Shown: in pieces, positions 21,479 through 34,235 of the stretch
Layout: every line of letters starts with the position of its first letter
Numbering within the stretch: position 1 is the stretch's first letter
Notes under the pieces: generated by a model
What the model was told of the DNA's origin: nothing
The model's database searches: none
Seen by the model: only the letters and a program-made list of their open reading frames with translations
Origin: Elusimicrobiota bacterium
Lineage (GTDB): Bacteria; Elusimicrobiota; UBA8919
DNA: 34,273 bases
NCBI GenBank assembly: GCA_016218625.1
Contig: JACRDL010000036.1
Span: 1 to 34,273 of the forward strand
Direction: 5' to 3'
Program-made: the position numbers and the translations under genes

Positions 21479-21507
21479 AGAATATAAAATTTTATAAAGT
21501 TTGTCAA
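21479..21507 (-). promoter_or_regulatory. Sigma70-type promoter of the decarboxylase gene
   Basis: TTGACA (21507-21502), 17 nt, TATTCT (21484-21479). The -35 box contains the TGA stop codon of larE. Confidence 0.75.
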
Positions 21508-22334
21508 GGTTTTTTTATTATTTTATTTAAACTTCCTGTTCTGTAGCCCTCCAAATCAAGCGTAATATATGCGTAGTTATATTTTGAAAGGATTGCAACT
21601 ATTTTTTTATGCATATCGTTTTTGAATATTCGGTTCAACTGGTTTTTATCAATTTCTATTCTCGCGGTATCCTGATAATCCCGTAGACGGAGATTTGTTA
21701 ATTGCAGTTTCTTTAATTCATTTTCCGCATCGCTTATTTTTTTTAATTTCTCCGGTGTAATTTTGTACCAGTAAGGAAATCTTGATGCTAGGCAGGGCGA
21801 TGCCTCTTTATTCCATGTTGGAAGTTTCATTTTTTTTGAAAGCAATCTTATGTCATTTTTAGAAAGTTCGGATTCCAAAAGCGGATGTTTGACGTTCCAT
21901 TTTTCGGCCGCTTTCATTCCGGGGCGGTAATCATCTCTATCGGAATAATTAGTCCCGTCGCAGATGATTTTTATTTTGTATTTTTTTGCGAGTTCCGCCA
22001 GCCGTCCGAAAAGTTCGTTTTTACACCAGTAACATCTGTCCGGTATATTGCGTACGAAGTTTTTGTTGCTCATTTCGCCGGTTTTCAGGAAAAGCTGTTT
22101 AATGCCGAATTGTTTAATATTTTTTTTTGCACAGGATAAATCATCTTTAGGATATGTCTGAGAAATCGCGGTGGCGGCTATAACATTTTTCTTGCCCAAT
22201 ATATCAACTGCAACTTTCAACAAAAATGTTGAATCAACACCACCAGAATAAGCAATTAGGACATTCTTGTAATTTTTCAAAATCTTTCTTAATTTTTCTA
22301 ATTTATGGTTTGAATCTCTTACCTGTTTCTGCAA
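21504..22334 (-). CDS. larE: ATP-dependent sacrificial sulfur transferase LarE
   Basis: 276 aa using the TTG at 22334, which has GGAGG 7 nt upstream; a GTG at 22343 would overlap that site. The PP-loop SGGVDST (30-36) adenylates the substrate. Also present are ISQTYPKDD, CYWCKNELF, ICDGTNYSD and SPCLASRFPY. LarE inserts sulfur into pyridinium-dicarboxylate mononucleotide to build the nickel-pincer cofactor of lactate racemase and related enzymes. Cys181 matches the sacrificial cysteine of the L. plantarum enzyme; C101 and C104 (CYWC) give the three-cysteine set of LarEs reported to carry a [4Fe-4S] cluster. LarB, LarC and LarA are not nearby. It overlaps the 3' end of the flavin reductase gene by 32 bp, so it is probably coupled. 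Confidence 0.92.
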   Translation of the reverse strand: MQKQVRDSNHKLEKLRKILKNYKNVLIAYSGGVDSTFLLKVAVDILGKKNVIAATAISQTYPKDDLSCAKKNIKQFGIKQLFLKTGEMSNKNFVRNIPDRCYWCKNELFGRLAELAKKYKIKIICDGTNYSDRDDYRPGMKAAEKWNVKHPLLESELSKNDIRLLSKKMKLPTWNKEASPCLASRFPYWYKITPEKLKKISDAENELKKLQLTNLRLRDYQDTARIEIDKNQLNRIFKNDMHKKIVAILSKYNYAYITLDLEGYRTGSLNKIIKKP

Positions 22335-22845
22335 ACCAGCCACCTCCGAGATGGTGAATTGTTTTTATTTTATCCGTCTTAATATATTCATCAAAAAGTT
22401 TGTCGTCAGCATCCGCATAAACGATTTTTGAGATAAAAAGTGTAACATCAATGTATTTGTATTGATTGATTACTTTGCATTCTATATGGGCGAAACATTC
22501 TTTTATTTTGGGAGGACTGATTTTTTTAGATGGGGTTGCTGTGAAATTTGCATTTTTAAACTTGTCAGTATTTTTACCGGACACAGAACCGCAATACAAA
22601 ACATTTTTTATAAGTTTTTTGTCGGGTATATTTATAACAAATTCTTTTGTTTGTTTGATTAACTTTTGAGAATATGCCTGTTCACCCATTGCTATTGCTA
22701 TAAGCGGCGGCTCGGAATTGACAACGGTAAGCCATGCGAGGGTCATTACATTCGGTTTGCCGGTTTTATCAGCAGTTGTAATTAAAACAACGGGTCCGTG
22801 ATTTATCAGCCGGTAAGCAATTTCCGGTTTAACATTTTTTAACAT
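22303..22845 (-). CDS. Flavin reductase-like domain protein
   Basis: 180 aa from the ATG at 22845, which sits exactly 7 nt after a -10 box. The first residues MLKNVKPEIAYRLINHGPVVLITT and the following KPNVMTLAWLTVVNSEPPLIAIAM match the FMN-binding flavin reductase-like split barrel; IPDKKLIKNVLYCGSVSGKNTDKF is also typical. Such proteins use FMN as cofactor or substrate for NAD(P)H-dependent reduction; the physiological partner is unknown. A longer reading of 43 codons would run through a terminator and a repeat, and is rejected. The gene overlaps larE. Confidence 0.88.
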   Translation of the reverse strand: MLKNVKPEIAYRLINHGPVVLITTADKTGKPNVMTLAWLTVVNSEPPLIAIAMGEQAYSQKLIKQTKEFVINIPDKKLIKNVLYCGSVSGKNTDKFKNANFTATPSKKISPPKIKECFAHIECKVINQYKYIDVTLFISKIVYADADDKLFDEYIKTDKIKTIHHLGGGWFAETGKRFKP

Positions 22846-22990: not shown

Positions 22991-24862
22991 TCAATCCCAC
23001 AGGTACAGATTTATACCGGCGGAATATGTTCTTCCGGGAAGCGGATAATTTTCACGGGAGACATATCTTCTGTCAAAAATATTTTCAACACTGAAAAATA
23101 CTTCTGACTGAAGAATTTTTCTGCTTACCCTTAAATTCGCAAGAGTATAACCGGGAATTTTATGCTCTTTCCAATCTTCCCATATTTGTTTGTGTGTATA
23201 TTCAACTCCAAGTTTTGTTTTGATTTCTAACGGTGCCGAATAATTCAGTCCGTAATTCAGACGATGTTTTGGAGTGTACTGTAATGTTTTATAGGTTCCA
23301 GTTTCTTTACCCATGCTTTCAAGAAAAGTATAATTTAAATTTTGTGTTATGTTTTTTATACTACTATTTTCTATCTCAAATTCAACTCCTCTTGAAAATA
23401 CTTTACCAACATTTGAAGGTGTATAAATTGAACTTGTCGGGCTAATTTTTGCCCACTGAATAAAATTTTTTATATCGCTGTAAAACAGTATTATCTTTGA
23501 AACTAAAATTTCTTTTAGTTTATACTCCATACCGAAATCGGTCCCGATAGATTTTTCAGGTTTGAGTTCCGGATTACCTACACCCATACCGGGAACATCT
23601 GCGTATAAATCATCAAATGTCGGTGCACGAAACGCCCGCCCGACAGTTGAAGAGAGTTTGAAATTATCACTGAGTTTGTAGATATTGACAACTCTCGGAT
23701 TCAACTGTCCGCCGAAAACATTGTTGTAATCATATCTTGTACCAGCAGTTGCTGTTAGACGTTCAAGGTTAAATGTTTTTTGGATAAAGATAGCAGAAGT
23801 ATCAGCCCATTTATCAATAACTGTTGTTTTAGTAAATTCGTTTTTTTTATTGCAGATGTCATGCTTTCCTTCAACTCCGGCAGTTATATTATGTAGTGTG
23901 TCGGCTTGTATAGTTCCTCCGAGAGTATCTGAGATGCCAATATCATCTTTTTGGGGGCTATCGGGGTCTCTAAGACGAAAATATTTCTGCTGAAAGTAAA
24001 TTTTGGATTGCAATTTTGTTTCATCCGAGAGTTTTTTTTCATAATTTAATTCATATACCTGTTTTCTTGTTTTCATATTCTGATTTGGTGTTTTTGCTGT
24101 TTGCTCTTTATCATTGTCATAATCAGCAATTTCTGTTTTGTTTGTTCCGGGTATTCCCAGTTCGTCATTGTGGTGATTTATAAATGTTCCGAATTTCCCG
24201 ATTTTGTCAAAATCATAGCCAATTTTTGATGAGAGATTTAAGCCGTCATATTCAGAATTTTCCCTGAACCCGTCGGATACATTTTTACTTCCTGAAAGAA
24301 AAATGTTTGCCTTTCCGGGTTTTGCAGAAAAATTCATTTTACAGGATTTTGTGCTGAAACTTCCATATTCAAGTCCAATTTCGGTTTTTGGTTTTGCGGT
24401 AATTGCTTTTTTTGTTATGATATTTACAACACCGCCAAGAGCGTTTGCACCGTAAAGTGCTGAAGAAGGTCCTCGCATAACTTCTATTCTTTCAATATTT
24501 TCAGTAGGTATTTCAGAAAGATTCGCTGAACCTGCCGCACTTCCCAAAATATCATTTACAGGTCTTCCGTCAACCATAACAAGAACCTGTTTTGATGAAT
24601 CCTTGCCGCCTCTTATATTTATTTCCGAATGCGCTCCCAGAGTTCCATATTTTAATACCTGAATGACCCCGGTTTTATTTTCCAAAATCTCACCAACAGT
24701 TTTTGCGTCTGACTTTTCAATTTCGTCTTCTGTTATTACAGTAATATTCGTCGCTGTTTTTTCAACAGGCACCTCCTTTCTCAATCCGATAAACACTGTT
24801 GTTTCCTGTGCAAAAAGCACACCCATTCCCAATAAAACTAAACCAACAAAAAACTTTTTCAT
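22991..24862 (-). CDS. btuB: TonB-dependent vitamin B12 receptor (BtuB-like)
   Basis: 623 aa. Signal peptide at residues 1-18 (MKKFFVGLVLLGMGVLFA), a possible TonB box close after it (TTVFIG), a plug domain with VGEILENKTGV, INIRGG, VLVMVDGRPVND, IERIEVMRGPSSALYGANALGGVVNIITKK, then a 22-strand-type barrel containing GRAFRAPTFDDLY, GNPELKPEKS and the final VENIFDRRY block. It imports a large ligand across the outer membrane using TonB/ExbBD. Corrinoid specificity is inferred from the cobalamin riboswitch directly upstream and the BtuFCD-CobO genes before it. Strong GGAGG 10-12 nt before the ATG. A terminator follows. Confidence 0.92.
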   Translation of the reverse strand: MKKFFVGLVLLGMGVLFAQETTVFIGLRKEVPVEKTATNITVITEDEIEKSDAKTVGEILENKTGVIQVLKYGTLGAHSEINIRGGKDSSKQVLVMVDGRPVNDILGSAAGSANLSEIPTENIERIEVMRGPSSALYGANALGGVVNIITKKAITAKPKTEIGLEYGSFSTKSCKMNFSAKPGKANIFLSGSKNVSDGFRENSEYDGLNLSSKIGYDFDKIGKFGTFINHHNDELGIPGTNKTEIADYDNDKEQTAKTPNQNMKTRKQVYELNYEKKLSDETKLQSKIYFQQKYFRLRDPDSPQKDDIGISDTLGGTIQADTLHNITAGVEGKHDICNKKNEFTKTTVIDKWADTSAIFIQKTFNLERLTATAGTRYDYNNVFGGQLNPRVVNIYKLSDNFKLSSTVGRAFRAPTFDDLYADVPGMGVGNPELKPEKSIGTDFGMEYKLKEILVSKIILFYSDIKNFIQWAKISPTSSIYTPSNVGKVFSRGVEFEIENSSIKNITQNLNYTFLESMGKETGTYKTLQYTPKHRLNYGLNYSAPLEIKTKLGVEYTHKQIWEDWKEHKIPGYTLANLRVSRKILQSEVFFSVENIFDRRYVSRENYPLPGRTYSAGINLYLWD

Positions 24863-25053: not shown

Positions 25054-25587
25054 TTAGTATTCTATTCCTTTTCTTCGTTGAATTCCTTTATCAAATGGAT
25101 GTTTAACTTTTTTTATTTCACTGACTAAATCTGCAATTTGAATTATTTTTTCTGTTGCATCGCGGCCTGTTAAAACGATTTCCAGATTTTCTGGCTTTTT
25201 ATTCAGTAATTCAAGTAATTCTTCTTCAGAAATAAATTTATCTCTGACGGAAATAAGAATCTCGTCAAGTATAAGCAGGTCATATTTTCTCTGTTGAAAT
25301 ATTTCTTCAATAAATTTAAGTGCTAAAAGACATTCTTCTCTGATTTTTTCTACCGGCTCATTTTTATAAAAATGCGGATGCCGTTCAGCGAATCTATAAA
25401 TATCCACACTAAGTTGTTTCAACAATTTTAGTTCACCATAATGTTCGTCTTTATGTTCTCCTTTATGAAAATTGATGTAGCACACTTTTAATCCGTGCCC
25501 GAGTGCCCTTGATGCAAGTCCTATTGCTGCCGTTGTTTTACCTTTACCATCGCCGGTATAAACCTGAACCAATCCTTTGTTTTTCAT
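25054..25587 (-). CDS. cobO: Cob(I)yrinic acid a,c-diamide adenosyltransferase (CobO/CobA/BtuR)
   Basis: 177 aa. The P-loop YTGDGKGKTTAAIGLASRALGHG (from residue 10) and the blocks CYINFHKGEH, ILDEI and VLTGRDA...LVSEIKKVKHPFDKGIQRRKGIEY match the CobO/BtuR family. It attaches the 5'-deoxyadenosyl group of ATP to cob(I)alamin or corrinoid precursors, in synthesis or salvage. AAGGAGG is 6-7 nt before the ATG, and btuD ends 12 bp upstream. Placement after the transporter fits adenosylation of imported corrinoid. Confidence 0.95.
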   Translation of the reverse strand: MKNKGLVQVYTGDGKGKTTAAIGLASRALGHGLKVCYINFHKGEHKDEHYGELKLLKQLSVDIYRFAERHPHFYKNEPVEKIREECLLALKFIEEIFQQRKYDLLILDEILISVRDKFISEEELLELLNKKPENLEIVLTGRDATEKIIQIADLVSEIKKVKHPFDKGIQRRKGIEY

Positions 25588-25599
25588 CGGTTTTCCTCC

Positions 25600-26382
25600 T
25601 TATGATGTTTCACCAGGGACTAAAAATATATATGGTTTATGTGTAACCGGATTTTCTTTTACAATGACCACAGTTCTGTAGACCTCCTCTATTGTTTGAT
25701 AAGTTAGCACTTCCTTCGGTATTCCGCTTTTGTGGATCAAACCGTTATTAAGCAACAATAACCTATTACAGTATTCACTTGCTAAATTAAGGTCATGCAG
25801 AACCATACACACTGTAAGACCGAAGTCCCTGTTTAATTTTTTTACAAGATCCAGAATTACTACCTGGTGGGTTATGTCCAGATGTGAAGTGGGTTCATCT
25901 AACAGAAGTAATTTCGGCTCCTGTGCCAATGCTTTTGCAATAAGAACAAGTTGTTTTTCTCCCCCGCTTGTTTCCGAGAGAAACCTGTCTTTTAACTTGT
26001 GAGTATCGGTTAAAACCAGACATCTTTCTGCAATTTCTAAATCCTTTTTTGTTTCTAAAAATTGAAATCTCTGAAAATATGGGATTCTGCCTAAAAGAAC
26101 AAATTCTTCAACGGTCATAAAATCTATATTAAAATCTTGCGGTACAACCGCTACTTTTTTAGCAAGTTCTTTTAATTCCATCTGTGCAATATTTTTTCCT
26201 TCAATGAGAATCAATCCCTGCCCTGGATTAAGTATTTTGGTTATTGCACGCAGGAGAGTAGTTTTTCCGGAACCGTTAGGTCCTATTATTCCTACAATTT
26301 CACCGTGCTGTATATTAAAATTTATATTTTGGAGAAAAAATTTCGAGTCGTATCCGCAAGATAAATTTCTTACCTCAAGCAT
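25600..26382 (-). CDS. btuD: Corrinoid ABC transporter ATPase (BtuD-like)
   Basis: 260 aa. Walker A GPNGSGKTT at about 35-43, Q-loop VVPQDFNIDF, ABC signature in ETSGGEKQLVLIAKALAQ, Walker B LLLLDEPTSHLD and the switch histidine in VLHDLNLASEYC. It belongs to the FecCD-partner ATPases (BtuD/FhuC/HmuV), which take up B12, siderophores or heme. B12 specificity comes from context: adenosyltransferase downstream, corrinoid synthesis genes upstream, B12 riboswitch nearby. The start codon overlaps the btuC stop (TAATG). Confidence 0.92.
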   Translation of the reverse strand: MLEVRNLSCGYDSKFFLQNINFNIQHGEIVGIIGPNGSGKTTLLRAITKILNPGQGLILIEGKNIAQMELKELAKKVAVVPQDFNIDFMTVEEFVLLGRIPYFQRFQFLETKKDLEIAERCLVLTDTHKLKDRFLSETSGGEKQLVLIAKALAQEPKLLLLDEPTSHLDITHQVVILDLVKKLNRDFGLTVCMVLHDLNLASEYCNRLLLLNNGLIHKSGIPKEVLTYQTIEEVYRTVVIVKENPVTHKPYIFLVPGETS

Positions 26383-27398
26383 TATTTTCCTCCCAGAACA
26401 ACCTGCTTTTTGCTCAAAGTATAAACAAAAAGAGAACCGCCGAGTATTCCGGTAATTACTCCGACGGGCAATTCCAGAGGAGAAATCACCGTTCTTGCTA
26501 ATGTATCACAGAAAATTAAAAAGATTGCTCCGCTTAAAAAGGAACTTATTAAAAGAATTCTATGGTCTCCTCCCACAAACATTCGCACAAAATGAGGTAC
26601 AACCAATCCCACAAAACCGATTATTCCGGATATGGAAACGCTGCAACCAGTAAGCAAAGATGCAAGAATAAAAAGCAATCTCTTGGTTTTTTCTACATTT
26701 ATACCCAAATGCAATGCTTCTTCTTCACCGAGAGAAAAAGCATTTAAGTCCAGACAGAAAAAATAAGAAATAATCAGTCCGAAAATAGAGACAAAAACCG
26801 CCAACTTTATAAGAAACCAGTTTGGCTCTTCTAACGAGCCCATTATCCAGAAAATAATTCCGTGAAGGTCTTCTACACGAGAGACAGCCATAATAAGCAT
26901 AATCAAAGACGAGGAAATAAAACTTATCATTACCCCTGTTAGAAGAAGCCCTTGAATTCTTAATATACCTCTTTTTATACTTAAAGAATACACGAGCAAA
27001 ATAATTAAAATAGCACCAAGAAAACCAAAAAGAGGCAATGAAAAAATACCGAGAATGTGGTTTAATCTTAAAACGATATTCAGGCATACGCCTAATGCTG
27101 CTCCGCCTGAAATACCGAGGGTATAGGGCTCAACAAGAGGATTTCTAAACATTCCCTGAAGGATTACCCCGGCTATGCTCAAACCGCCGCCTATGGCGAA
27201 GCCTAAAATAATTCTCGGTAAGCGGATATCAAAAATTATGCTGTATTCGGTAGTTCCTTTACCCTCAAAGATTAGAGAAATAACTTTTTTGAAAGGTATA
27301 CCTGCCGCACCGATACATAAAGAGAGAATACATACAGAAAGAAGAATCCCGCCTAAAAATAATATCCAAATAATCCATCTAAATAATTTCTTACTCAT
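26382..27398 (-). CDS. btuC: Corrinoid ABC transporter permease (BtuC-like, FecCD family)
   Basis: 338 aa, multi-helix inner-membrane protein of normal FecCD length. Landmarks are FDIRLPRIILGFAIGGGLSIAGVILQGMFRNPLVEPYTLGISGGAALG in the N-terminal half, GSLEEPNW in the middle, and SISGIIGFVGLVVPHFVRM with ELPVGVITGILGGSLFVYTL at the end. It forms a homodimeric channel for the ligand delivered by the periplasmic binding protein. The ATG overlaps the btuF stop by 4 bp, and its stop overlaps the btuD start. Confidence 0.93.
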   Translation of the reverse strand: MSKKLFRWIIWILFLGGILLSVCILSLCIGAAGIPFKKVISLIFEGKGTTEYSIIFDIRLPRIILGFAIGGGLSIAGVILQGMFRNPLVEPYTLGISGGAALGVCLNIVLRLNHILGIFSLPLFGFLGAILIILLVYSLSIKRGILRIQGLLLTGVMISFISSSLIMLIMAVSRVEDLHGIIFWIMGSLEEPNWFLIKLAVFVSIFGLIISYFFCLDLNAFSLGEEEALHLGINVEKTKRLLFILASLLTGCSVSISGIIGFVGLVVPHFVRMFVGGDHRILLISSFLSGAIFLIFCDTLARTVISPLELPVGVITGILGGSLFVYTLSKKQVVLGGK

Positions 27399-28213
27399 TT
27401 GTGTAATATTTCAGCTATTTCTTTCAGTACTTCAACAAAACTTTCCGGCGTGGGACTGCAAACTTTATCCGAATCAATAATATAAATTCTGTTATTTTTT
27501 ACTGCATTTATCGTTTTGTATTTCTGCCAGGTTTTTTTTTCTTTATCTCCCTGAATACCCATTGTAAGAATAATTATCACATCCGGATTTTGTTTGAGTA
27601 CTTCTTCCCGACTGTAAAGTCCTGTTTTTGCATTTTTAGCGATATTTATTCCGCCGGCGAATTCTATCAGGTCATTTATAAAATAATCTTTATTTGCAAC
27701 AAAAAGCGGATTTGCACCAATCTGAACTATTACTTTGAGTTTCGGCAATTTACTCATTTTTTGTTTTACAATATTTATTTTCTCTGTTGCTTCTTTAATT
27801 ATTTTATTTGCTTTCTGTTTCTTATTAACTATTTCTGATAGTTGTAAAAAAAATTCGCATAGTTCTGAAAATTTTTTTGCCGGGGAAAATGTAACAACAT
27901 TTACTTTAACATTCCGAAGTTTCTCTATTTGTCTGTTATCCATTATTGATGAACATAGAACAATATCAGGTTTAAGCGATATAATTTTTTCTAAATTCAT
28001 ATTTGTAAAAGTTCCGACAATTTCTTTATCTTTTACTTCAGGTAGTTCCTTGCAATAAAAACTTATTCCGACAATTTTATTTTCAACTCCTAAAAGGCAA
28101 AGAGATTTAGTTATTATAGGTGCTAATGAAATAATTTGTTGATATTGGTAGTCGGCGTTTAAACGCCGACTACATAAAATCAACAGAAGAGCAATAAAAT
28201 TTCTTAGTTTCAT
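27395..28213 (-). CDS. btuF: Corrinoid ABC transporter substrate-binding protein (BtuF-like)
   Basis: 272 aa from the ATG at 28213, whose ATGA overlaps the stop of the radical SAM gene; a 15-codon longer reading is rejected. The signal peptide hydrophobic run is NFIALLLILC (residues 5-14). The mature protein has IISLAPIITKSLCLLGVENKIVGIS, VGTFTNMNLEKIISLKPDIVLCS, NDLIEFAGGINIA and a C-terminal IYIIDSDKVCSPTPE, matching class III helical-backbone binding proteins such as BtuF. CSRRLNADY (14-22), at the end of the signal peptide, is encoded by a perfect 26-bp palindrome, so the processing site is uncertain. Cys14 might serve as a lipid anchor but the lipobox is poor. Confidence 0.9.
   Translation of the reverse strand: MKLRNFIALLLILCSRRLNADYQYQQIISLAPIITKSLCLLGVENKIVGISFYCKELPEVKDKEIVGTFTNMNLEKIISLKPDIVLCSSIMDNRQIEKLRNVKVNVVTFSPAKKFSELCEFFLQLSEIVNKKQKANKIIKEATEKINIVKQKMSKLPKLKVIVQIGANPLFVANKDYFINDLIEFAGGINIAKNAKTGLYSREEVLKQNPDVIIILTMGIQGDKEKKTWQKYKTINAVKNNRIYIIDSDKVCSPTPESFVEVLKEIAEILHK
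28148..28173. repeat. In-frame 26-bp perfect palindrome inside btuF
   Basis: Half-site GTAGTCGGCGTTT followed by its exact complement, fully self-complementary. It shares the GTAG...CTAC edges with 22891-22916 and 22926-22978. Read in frame at the signal-peptide/mature boundary. Confidence 0.9.
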
Positions 28214-29064
28214 GGCAAATTCAAAATTTGATTCATAGTAAAATATTCCATATTCCAATCGGGAATTACCGATTTAGATATTTTATCAATCTCCTTGAAT
28301 CTATCCAAAAGTTCATCTGCCCGAACCTCTATATGCTTATAAGGATCAGGTTTGTAAGCAGTTTCGGTCGTGTAAAACTCAACATTGTCCAAATATCTTT
28401 TGGCAACAGAATATGCCTTTCGCATCTCCTGATGAGTCGGTGTTCTTGAAACTTTCTTATCTAATTGTTCAGGTGCAAATTGATATATTTTGTAAGTTAT
28501 ATTTTTTGAAATTTGGCTTAAAAATTTTGCTATTTTTTTTATCTCCTCAAAATCCATTATATCAGGCATAAATATTGTCCGAACATAAAAGTTCAAATTA
28601 TAATGATGCAGTAACTTCACCGCCCTCAATATAGTAGCATTGCTTTTACCCGTATAGTGTTTATGGATTTTATCAGTATATGCTTTCAGGTCAAGTTTGA
28701 TATAATTTATATTCAGTGACTTTAACTCTTTGATTAAATTCCTGTCCAGCAAATAGCCATTTGTAGACATGCCAATTTTGTTGATATGCAAGTCACTTAA
28801 TTTTTGGATTAAAGAGATTAAATAATCTGCATTTGTTGTCGGTTCACCGCCGGTCATTTGAACATCATTAACCATTTCGCCGAGAATGACTTTTGAAGAT
28901 TTAATAAGTAAATTAAGAAGTTCTTCAACGGAAAAACTTCTTCCCATTTCCTTCTTGGCAATAGCAAAACATCCCTTACAGTTAAAATTACATCCGGCTA
29001 AATTAATTTTCACTTTTTTTGTAGGGCTTACTACAAATGTTAAAAACGGCACTTTTCTATACAT
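28210..29064 (-). CDS. Radical SAM protein, unknown substrate (second radical SAM of the B12 operon)
   Basis: 284 aa from the ATG at 29064, which overlaps the end of the restored Dph6-like gene by 8 bp. The radical SAM cluster motif is C25-x3-C29-x2-C32 (AGCNFNCKGC), GGEP is at 72-75, then STNGYLLD and KLDLKAYTDKIHKHYTGK. The lack of a SPASM cysteine cluster and the small size resemble the activating-enzyme-type (PflA-like) or PqqE-lacking-SPASM group; the reaction is unknown. It is tightly coupled to btuF (ATGA overlap). In this operon it could act on the peptide product, on a corrinoid, or on a partner enzyme. Confidence 0.82.
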   Translation of the reverse strand: MYRKVPFLTFVVSPTKKVKINLAGCNFNCKGCFAIAKKEMGRSFSVEELLNLLIKSSKVILGEMVNDVQMTGGEPTTNADYLISLIQKLSDLHINKIGMSTNGYLLDRNLIKELKSLNINYIKLDLKAYTDKIHKHYTGKSNATILRAVKLLHHYNLNFYVRTIFMPDIMDFEEIKKIAKFLSQISKNITYKIYQFAPEQLDKKVSRTPTHQEMRKAYSVAKRYLDNVEFYTTETAYKPDPYKHIEVRADELLDRFKEIDKISKSVIPDWNMEYFTMNQILNLP

Positions 29065-29252
29065 TGATAATTTCCAAAAACCAGTGATTATCTTTGAATA
29101 TTTTTCTGCCAATTTTAAACTTTAATAATTTTTTGAAAATTGGTCCATTATAAACGAATGTATGATATTCCCCGCCTTCACCGCAGAGGTCGACATTCCC
29201 TAATTTTTTTAAGTCCTCCACAAAACTTTTATTTATTTCTTTACCCAGCCAT
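29057..29252 (-). pseudogene. Detached C-terminal part of the Dph6-like ATP pyrophosphatase (frameshift)
   Basis: In the frame one base off from the preceding gene, the sequence reads KWLGKEINKSFVEDLKKLG, then VDLCGEGGEYHTFVYNGPIF and ends in TAG at 29059-29057. This is the missing C-terminus of the family (LGEYHTFVxDGPIF block). One base lost from an A-run (TTTT on the plus strand, 29252-29255) explains the break. It may be a real frameshift, programmed slippage or an assembly error. Confidence 0.8.
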
Positions 29253-29703
29253 TTTCATCTAAAAACTTTACATTTGTCGCAACAATAATTGCTTTAAATC
29301 CTGAATCAATAAATTCAGTAATCAATTTTTCTCTTTCCTCTTTCCATAAAGGCAAAATCGGAGTTATACCTATTTCTTTACAGACCCTTTCTACCCAATC
29401 CCTGTGTTCCTGTAAATCAATATCGCCGAATATGCCGCAAGAAATATTTTCTTTTTTAAATTCCGAAATAACTTTTTTAAATTCTTTTTCATAATTTTTC
29501 CACGAACTTTTTCTTTGAATAATCGGAATTCCGATTGAATCCGCCTGCAATTTTAATAAGTTTGAGGAAATACCGTGTGTCCGGGAATGTTTACCGTCTT
29601 CGGCAATCATATTAATAAGGAATGATACTTCATAATTTTTTAACGCTCTATATAAAGCAAGACAACTATCTTTACCGCCGCTCCAACAACAGAATGTTTT
29701 CAT
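29233..29703 (-). CDS. Dph6/ATP_bind_4-family ATP pyrophosphatase, truncated by frameshift
   Basis: 156 aa as read. PP-loop WSGGKDSCLALYRA (residues 8-21), EDGKHSRTHGIS, then CGIFGDIDLQEHRDWVERVC and ILPLWKEEREKL match the family of diphthine-ammonia ligase (Dph6) and its bacterial relatives of unknown function. Bacteria do not make diphthamide, so the bacterial substrate is different; an ATP-dependent amidation or thiolation is plausible. The reading stops at DENGWVKK, but the rest of the domain continues in another frame to 29057, giving about 215 aa if restored. Its ATG overlaps the cbpB-like stop by 4 bp (ATGA). Its place in the corrinoid operon suggests a role with the peptide or corrinoid. 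Confidence 0.85.
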   Translation of the reverse strand: MKTFCCWSGGKDSCLALYRALKNYEVSFLINMIAEDGKHSRTHGISSNLLKLQADSIGIPIIQRKSSWKNYEKEFKKVISEFKKENISCGIFGDIDLQEHRDWVERVCKEIGITPILPLWKEEREKLITEFIDSGFKAIIVATNVKFLDENGWVKK

Positions 29704-31103
29704 ATCTGCGTTACCTCCAAACTATTAAGCATTCCCTTATCCCAATTATCCCAGAGGTATGCATCCTCTTTACCATCGGCAATTAAACGTAATGCGTAGC
29801 GTGCCTGTTCCTCATAAAGTTCGCAAAAAGCACCTGGCTTTTCTATGGAACCACCCATTTCATTGGCTTCGGCAGGGCAAGGTGAACCACAGAAGTGACG
29901 AACAGCACAACGGGAACAGGGTTCAATATTTTCAATATGTCTGTTTGTAACAAGATTGAATGGTTCTGTTTTTAAAACTTTATTAATGTCATCTTTGAAA
30001 ATATTACCGCCTTTAAATTTTTCTAAACCAATAAACTCACTACAAGGAAATAAATCACCGCTACATGAAATTGCAAAAAAGCATCTTCCTCCGCCGCAGG
30101 GTGAGATGTCGCACATTAGTTGGCGCCCGCTTGGAGCAATGATACCCATCAAGACATTAGCAAAATTTGCCACCACAAGTTTACGCCCGGTTTTTTTATA
30201 AAGATGATAAGTACGGTCTAATGCCTTCAAGTAATGTTTTGATATCTGATAATCCACTGGTTTATACTGCCGGGCACCAGAGAGAGTGCAACGGATGGGA
30301 TTCAACATGCAAATCGGTACTTCCATCTTGTGTAAAAACTCAACTATTTTCGTAAGTGAGGACATATTTTTATTTGTTGTTGTGCAAATCACAGAATAAT
30401 TTTTGTAACCTCTGAGGCGATTTATTGCTTCTATTACATTTTGAAAGATACCCTTGCCATTCCAGTTTTTGCGTAGTTGATCGGCTACCTTTGCATTGTG
30501 GCCGTCAAGCGAAAGCCCGATACTTACTCCTCTTGAAGTCAAAAATTCTATCGCCTCAGCATCTAAAAGTGTGCCATTGGTCTGTATGCCGAAACGGAAA
30601 TATTTTCTAAATTTGTCTATAGCCGAAAAAACAGTTTTTTTATTAAGCATTGGCTCGGCACCATGGAAAACAATTTGTGGTTTTTGACCTTTAGGTAAGG
30701 TATGCTTAAAATAAATCTTTAGGATTTCAAGTGCTCTTGAAAGCTTCTCAACGGACATATTTTTTCCATTTTTACGTAAATTCTCAGGGATATAACAGTA
30801 TGAACAATTCAGATTACACCGGTCAGTAGGATTAAAATAAACTGCCGAGGGTTTCAAACCAAATCTCAGAATGTTCATCTCATTGACAAAAGATTTTTCT
30901 TTTTTGCGGTATTCGCGCAGATATGACGAGTCGGTCAAAGCCCGTCCAAGTCGGTTTTTTTTAACAAGTGACCAGAACGCGGTGTCCGCAGATATCAATC
31001 CGATATAGTCATTATGCCCGATATCTATAGGTTGAATCTGAAGCCCATTTCCTGTATTAAGATAAATTCCTTGAGACAATGCATAATTATTTACAATTTT
31101 CAT
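29700..31103 (-). CDS. Radical SAM/SPASM peptide-modifying enzyme, CbpB-like
   Basis: 467 aa. An N-terminal roughly 85-residue domain precedes the radical SAM motif C96-x3-C100-x2-C103 (DRCNLNCSYCY). GAEP at 149-152 is the SAM-binding equivalent, IQTNGTLLD follows, then a SPASM region with ten cysteines between 331 and 427 (C331, C336, C341, C347, C354, C396, C399, C405, C409, C427), enough for two auxiliary Fe-S clusters. Such enzymes typically modify ribosomal peptides. I recall a curated family CbpB, paired with precursor CbpA and found next to cobalamin genes; neighbourhood and the 35-aa gene upstream fit it well. AGAGG lies 4-5 nt before the ATG. A 13-bp hairpin separates it from the precursor gene. 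Confidence 0.82.
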   Translation of the reverse strand: MKIVNNYALSQGIYLNTGNGLQIQPIDIGHNDYIGLISADTAFWSLVKKNRLGRALTDSSYLREYRKKEKSFVNEMNILRFGLKPSAVYFNPTDRCNLNCSYCYIPENLRKNGKNMSVEKLSRALEILKIYFKHTLPKGQKPQIVFHGAEPMLNKKTVFSAIDKFRKYFRFGIQTNGTLLDAEAIEFLTSRGVSIGLSLDGHNAKVADQLRKNWNGKGIFQNVIEAINRLRGYKNYSVICTTTNKNMSSLTKIVEFLHKMEVPICMLNPIRCTLSGARQYKPVDYQISKHYLKALDRTYHLYKKTGRKLVVANFANVLMGIIAPSGRQLMCDISPCGGGRCFFAISCSGDLFPCSEFIGLEKFKGGNIFKDDINKVLKTEPFNLVTNRHIENIEPCSRCAVRHFCGSPCPAEANEMGGSIEKPGAFCELYEEQARYALRLIADGKEDAYLWDNWDKGMLNSLEVTQI

Positions 31104-31120: not shown

Positions 31121-31162
31121 CGTCTGAAAGGTCCCGGAAAGAAGCACAAGACCTTTCAGACG
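31121..31162 (-). promoter_or_regulatory. Strong hairpin between precursor peptide and radical SAM genes
   Basis: Perfect 13-bp arms CGTCTGAAAGGTC (31121-31133) and GACCTTTCAGACG (31150-31162) around a 16-nt loop. No T-run follows, so it is not a standard terminator. In RiPP operons such hairpins often lower downstream expression or protect the precursor mRNA, keeping peptide in excess of enzyme; that role is inferred here. Confidence 0.7.
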
Positions 31163-31182: not shown

Positions 31183-31290
31183 TTATTTCTTATCCACAAG
31201 GATGTAATGGGAAAGACCGGTACCGGTTGTCTTGCATTTTTTTCGATAAGCAACAATATTTTTCTTCGTATTGCGTTTTGTTTTCTTCAC
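31183..31290 (-). CDS. CbpA-like ribosomal peptide precursor, 35 aa
   Basis: A small gene not long enough for usual gene callers. GTG start at 31290 with GAGGGGG about 8 nt upstream, lying in the last codons of the asparagine-synthase-like gene (stop at 31296), hence translational coupling. The peptide starts with a basic leader-like half (KKTKRNTKKNIVAYRKK, 9 Lys/Arg) and ends with CKTTGTGLSHYILVDKK, carrying a single Cys (19), His (28) and two Tyr (15, 29). It sits directly upstream of the SPASM radical SAM gene, the classical precursor position. It resembles what I remember of the CbpA precursor family. A GTG three codons earlier is possible but too close to the ribosome binding site. Confidence 0.78.
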   Translation of the reverse strand: MKKTKRNTKKNIVAYRKKCKTTGTGLSHYILVDKK

Positions 31291-31295
31291 TCGTA

Positions 31296-32219
31296 TCACC
31301 CCCTCTTTTTACAAATTACATAGCCACAAACATTACAGTGAAAAGCAGTGCGTTCCATTTCCGCTCTGCATCCAGGACATTTTTTTTGGTTGTTTTTGGG
31401 TTTTGGAATTTCTCCAACTTCCTTTCTGTAAATTTCATAATAATAAAGATGCTCTTTGTTAAAAAACTTTATGGGATAAATTTTTTTCTTTTTTTCAAAT
31501 TCGTCATCAGAAATTTTTGAACTGATAATCTCCCTTAATTTTGTCATACCAGAACCGTATTCCAACGGTCTTTTATTCTGCCATATAATTTCTTTGGGCA
31601 AATCCTTCTCAAATGCTTTTCTTAATATCCATTTGCCGAAAACCTTATTATGCTCTTTTCTTATTTTGAATTTTTTATCTATTGATAAAGCAAATTTAGT
31701 AAAGTTCTTGTCCATATACGGCTGTTCTATTTTTAATCCGAAATACTTCCCAATTTCATTTGAACTGAAATACATTTTTTTTGATATTTGTTGAATATAA
31801 TTATTCAAATTATTTATTTCTTTCATATAATCATACCCGCCAAAAAGTTCATCGCTTCCATCACCGGTCATTATGCTTTTTAACCCGAGTTTTTTGGCGA
31901 ATTTTAATCCAAAATAAACGGTTATATCATTAGGAATTGCAGGGTCAAAACTTTTCAGTATTTTTATTATTTGTGGTATTACAGAAATCGCTTCATCAGT
32001 TTTTATTGTCAGGTAATATGTTTTTAAGTGAAGAAATTTTTCCAACATTTTTGCGAATTTAAGGTCGGGCGCGAAATTTTCCAAACTTACATTTATCGCT
32101 GCAATATTTGGAGAGAGTACCGCTAAAATGCTTGTATCCAATCCGCCGGAGAAAAGCATTCCTTCGGCGGAATTTCGTTTTACAGATAACATCAATTTTT
32201 GTTTTAATTTATTAATCAT
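31296..32219 (-). CDS. Stand-alone asparagine-synthase-type ATP pyrophosphatase with C-terminal zinc ribbon
   Basis: 307 aa. The AsnB synthetase domain is recognisable from FSGGLDTS (23-30, PP-loop), IMTGDGSDELFGGYDYM, KIEQPYMDKNFTKFAL and RKAFEKDLPKEIIWQNKRPLEYGSG. The N-terminal glutaminase domain (catalytic Cys2) is entirely absent, so ammonia or an amine of another substrate must be used. The C-terminus adds a zinc ribbon, CPGC (281-284) and CNVC (295-298), with an extra C303. Glutaminase-free AsnB homologues activate carboxylates in macrolactam-forming RiPP pathways (lasso peptide cyclases), so it may act on the adjacent peptide or on a corrinoid side chain. Its ATG overlaps the cbiB stop (ATGA). 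Confidence 0.85.
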   Translation of the reverse strand: MINKLKQKLMLSVKRNSAEGMLFSGGLDTSILAVLSPNIAAINVSLENFAPDLKFAKMLEKFLHLKTYYLTIKTDEAISVIPQIIKILKSFDPAIPNDITVYFGLKFAKKLGLKSIMTGDGSDELFGGYDYMKEINNLNNYIQQISKKMYFSSNEIGKYFGLKIEQPYMDKNFTKFALSIDKKFKIRKEHNKVFGKWILRKAFEKDLPKEIIWQNKRPLEYGSGMTKLREIISSKISDDEFEKKKKIYPIKFFNKEHLYYYEIYRKEVGEIPKPKNNQKKCPGCRAEMERTAFHCNVCGYVICKKRG

Positions 32220-33148
32220 AATAAAACCAAGCCCGCAATCAAAAACAAGCCGGATGATATATACGCAATTTTTATACTTTTTTTAATATGTCCTTTATCT
32301 AATGGATGACAATTATCTCCGAGGAATGGTTTTGTCACAGCAATGGAGTTATAAAAATTCATTCCGCCTAACCGTATTCCCAATGCACCTGCAACAGCGG
32401 CCTCGGGAATATCACTTATCTGTCTATTTTTTAGCCCATCACGAAAAATTATCTTGAAAGAAGAAAACAAACTACATCTGCAAAATAAACTTGCTAAAGG
32501 TATAAGAAATATTGATAATATTGCGGGTATAAAATTTGCTATTGTGTCAATCTTAGCAGAGCACCATCCGAAGTCCCGATATTTTTCGTTATTATATCCA
32601 ACCATTGAGTCAAGAGTATTTATTGATTTGTAAGTTAATGCTAATGCCGGTCCGCCGATTAAAGCATAAAAAAGCGGGGAGATTATTCCATCAACAATGC
32701 TTTCAGCGATTGTTTCTATGGTTGCGCGAATAATTTCTCGTTCGTTTAAGTTTTCAGTATCTCTTCCTACAATCATAGATAATTTTTCCTTTGCTATATC
32801 TAAATCATTTTTTTTCAGTGCCCAATACACTTCCAAACTTTCTACTTTCAAGTCCTTTACCGATAAAGAAGTATAAATCAAGAAAATTGAAATTCCACAT
32901 CCAAAATAAAAATTAAAAGTAGTTGATAATTTTACAATCAAAAAAGTTACATAAAATGTTCCGCCAATAATTAAAAAAGCAAGAACAGTCCCGCCTGTTT
33001 TTTTATTTCCAAGTTTTTTCCTTAAAAAATTTTCAAGTATCTCAACCGTTTTACCTATTAATTTTACGGGATGAGGAAACCGCCTCGGGTCACCAAAAAT
33101 CAAATCCAGAATATATGCAATAGGGATAGTTAATAGTTCATAGTTCAT
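32216..33148 (-). CDS. cbiB: Adenosylcobinamide-phosphate synthase CbiB
   Basis: 310 aa, several membrane helices. The N-terminal block AYILDLIFGDPRRFPHPVKLIGK (GDP...PHPV) and the middle block VGRDTENLNEREIIRATIETIAESIVDGIISPLFYALIGGPALALTYKSINTLDSMVGYNNEKYRDFGWCSAK are diagnostic. It joins the aminopropanol phosphate arm to cobyric acid; the arm is made by the upstream CobD, so the two genes form one biochemical unit. Its ATG lies 11 bp inside the end of cobD, in a heptamer tandem repeat. In Pseudomonas nomenclature the same enzyme is called CobD. Confidence 0.96.
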   Translation of the reverse strand: MNYELLTIPIAYILDLIFGDPRRFPHPVKLIGKTVEILENFLRKKLGNKKTGGTVLAFLIIGGTFYVTFLIVKLSTTFNFYFGCGISIFLIYTSLSVKDLKVESLEVYWALKKNDLDIAKEKLSMIVGRDTENLNEREIIRATIETIAESIVDGIISPLFYALIGGPALALTYKSINTLDSMVGYNNEKYRDFGWCSAKIDTIANFIPAILSIFLIPLASLFCRCSLFSSFKIIFRDGLKNRQISDIPEAAVAGALGIRLGGMNFYNSIAVTKPFLGDNCHPLDKGHIKKSIKIAYISSGLFLIAGLVLL

Positions 33149-33154
33149 AGTTTA
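33127..33154. repeat. TAGTTCA heptamer tandem repeat across the cobD/cbiB overlap
   Basis: Four 7-bp units: TAGTTAA, TAGTTCA, TAGTTCA, TAGTTTA. Read on the minus strand they encode NYEL at the end of CobD and again NYELL at the start of CbiB, and contain the cobD stop and the cbiB start. Confidence 0.8.
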
Positions 33155-34235
33155 GAGTTTTGTTTAATTCGTTTATTAGTAAAAAGTTCTCATCCCTTTT
33201 TCTTACAGCAACACGAAAAAATTTATTATTTAATCCGCGGAAATTACTACAATTGCGAATTAGTATTCCTTTTTTCCCAAGTAAATCTGTAAGTTTATCT
33301 GAATTAAACTTATTCGTTGTAAGTTGACATAGAATGAAATTTGCTGATGGTGGATATGGTTTAAGTCCGGTTACCATTTCTAATTTCTTAAAAAATATTT
33401 CTTTTTCTTTAAGAATATATTCACGAGTTTGTTTGATATAAGATGAATCCTTAATTACCTCTTTGCCAACCAATTGTCCAAAACAGTTAACAGACCATGG
33501 TATCTGAAATTTAGAAATGTTTTTTATTATTTTTTTATTTCCAACGAGATATCCTACTCGGAGTCCAGGTATTGCAAAAAATTTAGTAAGTGACCTTAAT
33601 ACTATAATGTTTGAACTTTTAGCAGCGATTTTAACCATTGTTAAATTATCAGCATCTTTTACAAAATCAATGAACGCCTCATCTATTACGAGAGTAACAT
33701 TATACCTTCGGCAGTTTTTTATTAATGTTAGAAGTTCTTCTTTTGAAAATACAAATCCTGTAGGATTATTCGGGTTGCATAAAAAAATTAAATCTATTTT
33801 CGGTAAAAACTTAATTATTTTCTCAATTTTTATTTCAAAATTTTCAGTTTTTTTTGCTTTAAAAAAAACACACTTTCCGCCCGTCAAATTTACTGCTGTT
33901 TCATACTCGCTAAAAGTAGGTATTGGTATAAGAACCTTTTTTGGTTTTAATGCCTGAACAATAAGAAAAATCAGTTCAGATGAACCGTTTCCTATTAATA
34001 GATTTTCGGAACCGATTTTCAGGTATTTTTTAAGAGTATCTTTTAAGTCAGTACATTCAGAATCAGGATAATGGATTATAGAGTGTATGTTATTAGTTAT
34101 GATATTTTTTACACTTTTTGGTAATCCGAGAGGATTTATATTTGCGCTGAAATTGAGAATGTTTTCAGTATTATATTTTTTAATTGCTTCTGTAATATTT
34201 CCGCCGTGTAAAGTTTTCAATTTGTCCACCGCCAT
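33138..34235 (-). CDS. cobD: Threonine-phosphate decarboxylase CobD (PLP)
   Basis: 365 aa, fold type I PLP enzyme close to histidinol-phosphate aminotransferase. LHGGNI near the N-terminus, NFSANINPLGLP, NPNNPTG (154-160), DEAFIDF (185-191) and the PLP lysine K218 in RSLTKFFAIPGLRVGYL; the HGGN start and the place before cbiB favour CobD over HisC. It decarboxylates L-threonine-3-phosphate to (R)-1-amino-2-propanol phosphate for the nucleotide loop of cobalamin. The ATG at 34235 has no clear Shine-Dalgarno, and a GTG two codons later is possible. Only 38 bp lie upstream in the window, so the operon's promoter and earlier genes are outside. Confidence 0.93.
   Translation of the reverse strand: MAVDKLKTLHGGNITEAIKKYNTENILNFSANINPLGLPKSVKNIITNNIHSIIHYPDSECTDLKDTLKKYLKIGSENLLIGNGSSELIFLIVQALKPKKVLIPIPTFSEYETAVNLTGGKCVFFKAKKTENFEIKIEKIIKFLPKIDLIFLCNPNNPTGFVFSKEELLTLIKNCRRYNVTLVIDEAFIDFVKDADNLTMVKIAAKSSNIIVLRSLTKFFAIPGLRVGYLVGNKKIIKNISKFQIPWSVNCFGQLVGKEVIKDSSYIKQTREYILKEKEIFFKKLEMVTGLKPYPPSANFILCQLTTNKFNSDKLTDLLGKKGILIRNCSNFRGLNNKFFRVAVRKRDENFLLINELNKTLNYEL

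Follow-up and report, generated by a model that had tools for sequence, protein, structure and literature searches.

Does a 35-codon open reading frame lodged between two enzyme genes encode a product and, if so, what would that product do? The frame lies in a 34,273-nucleotide stretch of Elusimicrobiota DNA (the window; Table 1), and its minus-strand translation is MKKTKRNTKKNIVAYRKKCKTTGTGLSHYILVDKK. Judged from its sequence, it is a real gene encoding CbpA. The first-pass annotation had described it as a precursor gene with a good ribosome binding site, lying between a putative ligase and a radical SAM enzyme, and both points are borne out. Translation would begin at a GTG codon, with the ribosome-binding site AGGGGGTGAT ending 4 nt before it and overlapping the end of the AsnB-like gene (the putative ligase). 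The gene begins 5 nt past the AsnB-like gene, and a further 79 nt separate its end from cbpB, the radical SAM gene, which starts at 31103. The peptide scores 45.2 bits against NCBIfam TIGR04164 ("modified peptide precursor CbpA", cut-off 35) over residues 14-35 (E 4.7e-12), and with the adjacent CbpB over the TIGR04163 cut-off the two genes form a CbpA/CbpB system. Of the features that define a RiPP, CbpA shows a ribosomally made predicted precursor with an adjacent maturase gene. A Pfam scan of the peptide gave no match, and comparison with solved structures returned nothing up to E 10.

Table 1. Features of the window around cbpA.
Feature	Coordinates	Strand	Evidence or remark
CobD threonine-phosphate decarboxylase	33138..34235	-	TIGR01140 326.8 bits, cut-off 290.55
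CbiB adenosylcobinamide-phosphate synthase	32216..33148	-	TIGR00380 222.5 bits, cut-off 165.9
AsnB-like ATP-pyrophosphatase	31296..32219	-	PF00733; operon neighbour
Ribosome-binding site of cbpA, AGGGGGTGAT	31295..31304	-	read from sequence
cbpA, CbpA precursor peptide	31183..31290	-	35 codons + stop, GTG start at 31290
Conserved block of CbpA, I12-K35, IVAYRKKCKTTGTGLSHYILVDKK	31186..31257	-	per-column information, 81 distinct peptides; pN/pS
cbpA-cbpB intergenic hairpin, both 13-nt arms perfect	31121..31162	-	inverted repeat
cbpB, radical SAM/SPASM peptide maturase	29700..31103	-	TIGR04163 702 bits, cut-off 375
Dph6-like ATP-pyrophosphatase	29233..29703	-	PF01902; operon neighbour, 10/81 loci
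Second radical SAM protein, activase-like	28210..29112	-	PF04055; operon neighbour, 4/81 loci
BtuF-like periplasmic binding protein	27395..28258	-	PF01497; BtuF match in same gene cluster
BtuC-like permease	26382..27398	-	PF01032 FecCD 313.5 bits
BtuD-like ABC ATPase	25600..26382	-	PF00005
Corrinoid adenosyltransferase, CobA/BtuR-like	25054..25587	-	TIGR00708 154.3 bits, slightly below cut-off 167.75
TonB-dependent receptor, BtuB by context	22991..24862	-	PF00593, PF07715

The cbpA-cbpB intergenic stretch of the window, which holds the hairpin, has a folding energy of -25.8 kcal/mol, and no T run was found 3' of the hairpin. Strong folds of this kind occur in part of the relatives, with z < -2 against mononucleotide shuffles in 17 of the 45 intergenic stretches examined. 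Such folding hints that processing may enrich the precursor message.

How widely the pair occurs, and under what selection, was assessed from relatives of CbpB. An alignment search of genome contigs returned 226 loci, and the best 80, with CbpB 56-74% identical to that of the window, were kept. Directly upstream of the CbpB homologue, 77 of these 80 encode a GxG(L)(S/T/A)H(Y/F) peptide; at the other three, the homologue starts no more than 52 nt from the edge of its contig. The conserved block has the consensus (V/I)IAxRKxCxxxGTGLSHYIL. Across 81 distinct peptides its columns hold R in 81, K in 75, C in 77, T in 73, S in 76 and Y in 77 (Phe in the remaining four); (V/I)IA, G, G, L, H, I and L are conserved as well, though the search pattern itself partly imposes the constancy of G, G, L and H. 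Among 339 moderately close pairs the block evolves at a pN/pS of 0.23 and a dN/dS of 0.15, against a pN/pS of 0.56 in the variable N-terminal tail, where synonymous sites are near saturation. Codon-level conservation had been proposed as the check on the gene, and this difference indicates purifying selection. The proposal of a small precursor gene, strongly constrained and accompanied by the gene of a radical SAM/SPASM peptide maturase, is thereby upheld.

The internal layout first proposed for the peptide fares less well. A leader and a core divided at the middle do not agree with a block spanning residues 12-35, nor with several full-length relatives of 29 residues. As these are the shortest complete peptides, the conserved block is nearly the whole peptide and leaves no room for a separate leader. 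The division into a basic half and a Thr/Gly-rich half can be traced, but the block already starts inside the basic half (IVAYRKKC), so that conservation extends beyond the C-terminal half. Of the residue make-up, the count of one tyrosine has to be corrected to two (Y15, Y29). The Cys is not a strict requirement, since 4 of the 81 distinct peptides have none at the aligned place; one of the four (L186) carries a Cys two residues earlier instead.

These observations bear directly on the view taken at first reading, in which CbpA is a leader-core RiPP and the AsnB-like gene encodes its macrolactam or amide ligase. Gene order in the window is in keeping with that view, as is a weak similarity of the AsnB-like protein to the lasso cyclase model NF033535, at 28.1 bits far under the cut-off of 525. 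But the AsnB-like gene accompanies cbpAB at only 7 of 81 loci, which speaks against the ligase as maturation partner, and the 29-residue peptides come without a leader; the view is very improbable. The AsnB-like protein itself lacks the glutaminase half (NCBIfam AsnB matches start at profile position 210-234) and carries a CxxC...CxxC zinc ribbon at its C terminus. Found at 7/81 and 10/81 loci, the AsnB-like and the Dph6-like enzyme are both too infrequent to count as core partners.

Matches to the CbpA model occur in 4 of 340 genomes of the window's phylum, the window genome included, and none of the other three belongs to its genus or family, which suggests horizontal spread or repeated loss. 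In a sample of CbpB-positive genomes from a Desulfobacterota-like phylum (L291-L310), CbpA is present in 20 of 20: eight peptides fit the pattern and 12, read by eye, are variants with two extra residues between Cys-xxx-Gly and (T/V)GL(S/A)HY. This variant subfamily (e.g. L309, L292), in which the insertion between Cys and (T/V)GL(S/A)HY amounts to one or two residues, may fall below the TIGR04164 cut-off. A scan of viral contigs yielded only distant radical SAM relatives (19-38% identity), which were not used.

CbpB is predicted to bring its own means of peptide recognition. In an AlphaFold2 model (58 sequences, mean pLDDT 87.7), residues 23-81 fold into three strands and two helices ahead of the radical SAM and SPASM portions, and this predicted strand-strand-strand-helix-helix region resembles a RiPP recognition element. 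Among solved structures Foldseek ranks CteB first (5why and 5wgg, TM 0.67-0.76; 5why by itself 0.69-0.76), followed by anSME and ChlB, and the sequence profile agrees, with CteB (5wgg, E 2e-34) and anSME as nearest solved relatives. CbpB stays below the cut-offs of the SCIFF/ranthipeptide maturase models (TIGR03974, 127.5 bits against 425; NF047865, 164.6 against 340). That CbpA and CbpB are precursor and maturase is very probable.

The bond that CbpB would make is suggested by analogy. CteB links Cys to Thr, according to passages in PMC8326336 and PMC6231123, and the SCIFF thioether was first reported as Cys32-Thr37, with a later result involving Thr34, as a passage of PMC8326336 has it. In canonical CbpA the single Cys stands five residues before the T of GTG, which equals the first-reported SCIFF spacing. 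A Cys thioether on CbpA is accordingly given a chance just short of even. At the putative acceptor place T, A, I, V or M is found (V in the variants), a tolerance that a backbone-carbon bond would fit better than a bond to a hydroxyl side chain. The Cys-to-acceptor distance varies among the peptides, and three Cys-less peptides appear in a table of 54 genomes (described below), so a fixed thioether is not certain.

The upstream DNA of the pair was examined for control elements. Rfam RF00174, the cobalamin riboswitch, was scanned for in the window and at the loci with more than 600 nt upstream, 73 of the 80; of the seven left out, one (L059) gave a match in a later scan. At 53 of the 73 scanned loci a riboswitch of the same strand has its end 124-315 nt upstream of the GxGL codons, at six it lies further off and at 14 none was found; at two loci (L043, L080) cbpAB is flanked by two riboswitches. 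A covariance model built from seven cbpA-upstream aptamers served for a second sample and for controls. The second sample, 20 of 32 CbpB-positive genomes of the Desulfobacterota-like phylum, was chosen before its upstream DNA was seen, and in all 20 the riboswitch lies 288-556 nt upstream of where the CbpB profile match begins. Among 38 ThiC-centred control stretches of CbpB genomes (L192 and L201, on CbpB contigs, being left out) there was one clear match and one marginal (E 0.07). It is thus almost certain, from these upstream sequences, that the pair is B12-controlled across many bacterial phyla. Defined by RF00174 upstream on the same strand, membership in the cobalamin regulon holds for the family and not for the window: no riboswitch was found in the window or its assembly, and the head of its operon probably lies beyond the contig end, as the operons of two relatives (L009, L013) suggest.

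Such control sits poorly with an ordinary RiPP, that is, a signal or antibacterial peptide whose B12 regulation is incidental. The small precursor and a radical SAM/SPASM maturase of the thioether group would suit such a product, but the core is nearly invariant across phyla, unlike antibiotics, and the riboswitch is present at all members of the second sample. Moreover, no recurring immunity gene was noted, and no recurring peptidase or exporter adjoins cbpAB among the loci examined, although a peptidase elsewhere in the genome is possible. An ordinary RiPP is therefore improbable.

The surroundings of cbpAB point in the same direction as the riboswitch. In the window, the genes around the pair form, as far as sequence assignments go, an operon serving corrinoid uptake and the late steps of assembly (Table 1). 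Downstream of the TonB receptor lies a LarE-type sulfur transferase (21504-22343; TIGR00268 304.3 bits, cut-off 150). Three relatives of the window (L009, L013, L021) combine CobU, CobT, CobS, CbiB, the Dph6-like protein, BtuF and BtuC with cbpAB in one run; in two of them (L009, L013) the operon includes BtuB too and has a riboswitch at its head. No run of ring-synthesis genes was found in these three operons. Across the family, at least one of ten B12 families lies within 10 kb at 33 of 81 CbpB loci (the 80 plus the window), against three of the 40 control stretches, and of those three one is itself a CbpB contig; CobD and CbiP were left out of these counts, their profiles having drifted to other proteins at the same eight control loci. 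With known B12 genes near only 33 of the 81 loci, the B12 link rests largely on the riboswitch. A neighbouring riboswitch, a member of the ten families within 10 kb, or both accompany cbpA at 68 of 73 loci; the other five have neither. Since none of the ten families comes within 10 kb of the pair at 40 of the 53 riboswitch loci, riboswitch-cbpA-cbpB often forms a stand-alone unit. One such unit was observed on a single contig of 6,500,104 bases (G672, L291).

An operon with uptake genes might mean that the modified peptide works outside the cell, as a "corrinophore" that is made under B12 shortage, exported, binds corrinoid or cobalt and is taken up again. Riboswitch control of cbpAB would be expected of such a scavenger, the window and its relatives place BtuF, BtuC and a TonB receptor in the same operon, and the invariant His, though demanded by the search pattern, could serve as a ligand. 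Yet neither an exporter nor a cleavage motif or peptidase recurs beside cbpAB, and the 40 riboswitch loci devoid of the ten B12 families within 10 kb count against it as well. A scavenger is unlikely, if still worth weighing.

Which step of cobamide formation the pair might serve was approached through gene content. In three loci (L057, L081, L083) cobT directly follows cbpB, giving riboswitch-cbpA-cbpB-cobT, and in two more (L039, L053) it does so as truncated frames. A profile of 54 CbpB genomes (covering 50 of the 80 loci, plus four genomes) contains CobT in 47, CbiC in 35 and BluB over the cut-off in six. Among the 19 without a CbiC match, 15 have CobT, which implies that genomes can retain cbpAB without ring synthesis. 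In both genomes with two long CobT matches, one CobT comes right after cbpB. One of these two genomes, that of the riboswitch-cbpA-cbpB-cobT locus L081 (G386), separately encodes a 587-aa BluB-CobT fusion next to CobS (L232 6152-7915).

A sample of 325 genomes from one phylum extends the comparison to CbpB-negative genomes. CobT is present in 30 of 32 CbpB-positive genomes (completeness 95% or more) and in 209 of 293 CbpB-negative ones (Fisher p 0.005, no phylogeny correction); besides the two exceptions, the window's own 86%-complete genome has no CobT match. At least two ThiC-family genes, taken as Bza-like copies, occur in 2 of the 30 CobT-positive genomes with CbpB and in 80 of the 209 without it (Fisher p 3.4e-4, again uncorrected for phylogeny), while BluB is rare in both groups. 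Of the CobT-positive, CbpB-negative genomes, 121 of 209 also have neither BluB nor a second ThiC. To lack both known routes, as measured, is therefore common, and purinyl cobamides would explain it. Cys-less CbpA occurs in three of six BluB-positive genomes (L004, L006 and L080, all with BluB over the cut-off; two of the three from one genus) and in none of 48 BluB-negative ones. Taken together, the CobT, ThiC, BluB and Cys-less counts incline towards a step at the nucleotide loop or the lower ligand, and a lower-ligand role of CbpAB is suggested by this gene content.

Stated in full, that role would have CbpAB make, from the peptide, the base (or its carrier) for CobT, as an alternative to BluB or the anaerobic Bza route. 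Frequent CobT with scarce BluB, fewer ThiC-family genes beside CbpB, the restriction of Cys-less CbpA to BluB-positive genomes, and cobT placed after cbpB, with a separate BluB-CobT fusion in one such genome, would all agree with it. Against these stand the uncorrected counts, with two of the three Cys-less cases from one genus; the many CbpB-negative genomes equally short of BluB and a second ThiC; and the replacement of Tyr by Phe in four peptides. No chemistry known to us would derive a base from such a peptide. The idea that CbpAB and BluB or Bza strictly replace one another is rejected, as BluB (six genomes) or BzaB (a match over the cut-off in L015's genome) coexists with CbpAB in at least 7 of the 54. 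Nor do CobT motifs separate CbpB-positive from CbpB-negative genomes: some CobTs adjoining cbpB read MPxWALGR instead of KPxGSLGR, and this was rejected as a specificity marker on finding it in CbpB-negative genomes too, several minus-strand rows being left out. The lower-ligand module is unlikely in this specific form, about on a par with the scavenger.

The explanation preferred here is broader: a riboswitch-controlled, CbpB-modified CbpA with a role late in the pathway. It builds on the observed gene pair, selection, riboswitch and B12 gene context and on a predicted CbpB fold, and as a whole it is held tentatively, its probability somewhat under one half. When corrinoid is scarce, the riboswitch would permit expression of cbpA-cbpB. 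CbpB, with its own peptide-recognition region, would bind the short peptide and modify its conserved block. The likeliest modification is a thioether like that made by CteB, which would join Cys to the residue (T, V, A, I or M) preceding Gly-Leu-Ser-His-Tyr. The product would be a conserved intracellular cofactor-type or helper peptide, not an antibiotic-like one. It would act in nucleotide-loop/lower-ligand assembly or corrinoid uptake and not in corrin ring synthesis; action at a late cobamide step is nearly, but not quite, an even proposition.

Known systems offer partial parallels. PQQ and mycofactocin each arise from a short, strongly conserved precursor and a radical SAM/SPASM enzyme, are widely shared, and are cofactors rather than antibiotics. 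CbpA and CbpB share the short, conserved precursor and the enzyme type but differ in that no PqqD-type partner or peptidase was noticed with cbpAB, and PQQ and mycofactocin models are not among the best 25 NCBIfam matches listed for CbpB. The Bza genes belong to the B12 regulon. Like the Bza and BluB routes, CbpAB occurs beside or together with CobT, and it too is in the B12 regulon; it differs in its peptide substrate, and no sequence relation was seen. The SCIFF system is closest through CteB, the nearest solved relative of CbpB by profile and fold, and through the N-terminal recognition region; CbpB is nonetheless far under the SCIFF maturase cut-off, CbpA has one Cys against six in SCIFF, and B12 control belongs to the CbpAB side. 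With the catalogued NCBIfam CbpA/CbpB family there is no difference: the window pair exceeds both curated cut-offs in the same gene order. The model name cobo_pep suggests that its author knew of a cobalamin link. No paper on CbpA/CbpB function or a riboswitch link was found in open-licence PubMed Central, so the family is already catalogued and its function apparently not described. The finding added here is that cbpAB is tightly tied to the cobalamin riboswitch, which the literature found does not state.

A peptide/radical-SAM pair kept near-unchanged under riboswitch control across many phyla implies a general B12-related job, and points to an unrecognised step in obtaining or finishing vitamin B12-type cofactors. 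In one survey, as given in a passage of PMC6461909, the lower ligand is predictable for only 58% of predicted cobamide producers, so a new module would matter for microbial B12 exchange. That CbpAB is a ribosomal route to a cobamide component, radical SAM chemistry on the peptide supplying or carrying the lower-ligand base or a nucleotide-loop part for its partner CobT, is more doubtful than either the scavenger or the lower-ligand module. If true, part of the cobamide family would be encoded by a peptide gene, and this route would help to explain those producers whose lower ligand is not now predictable.
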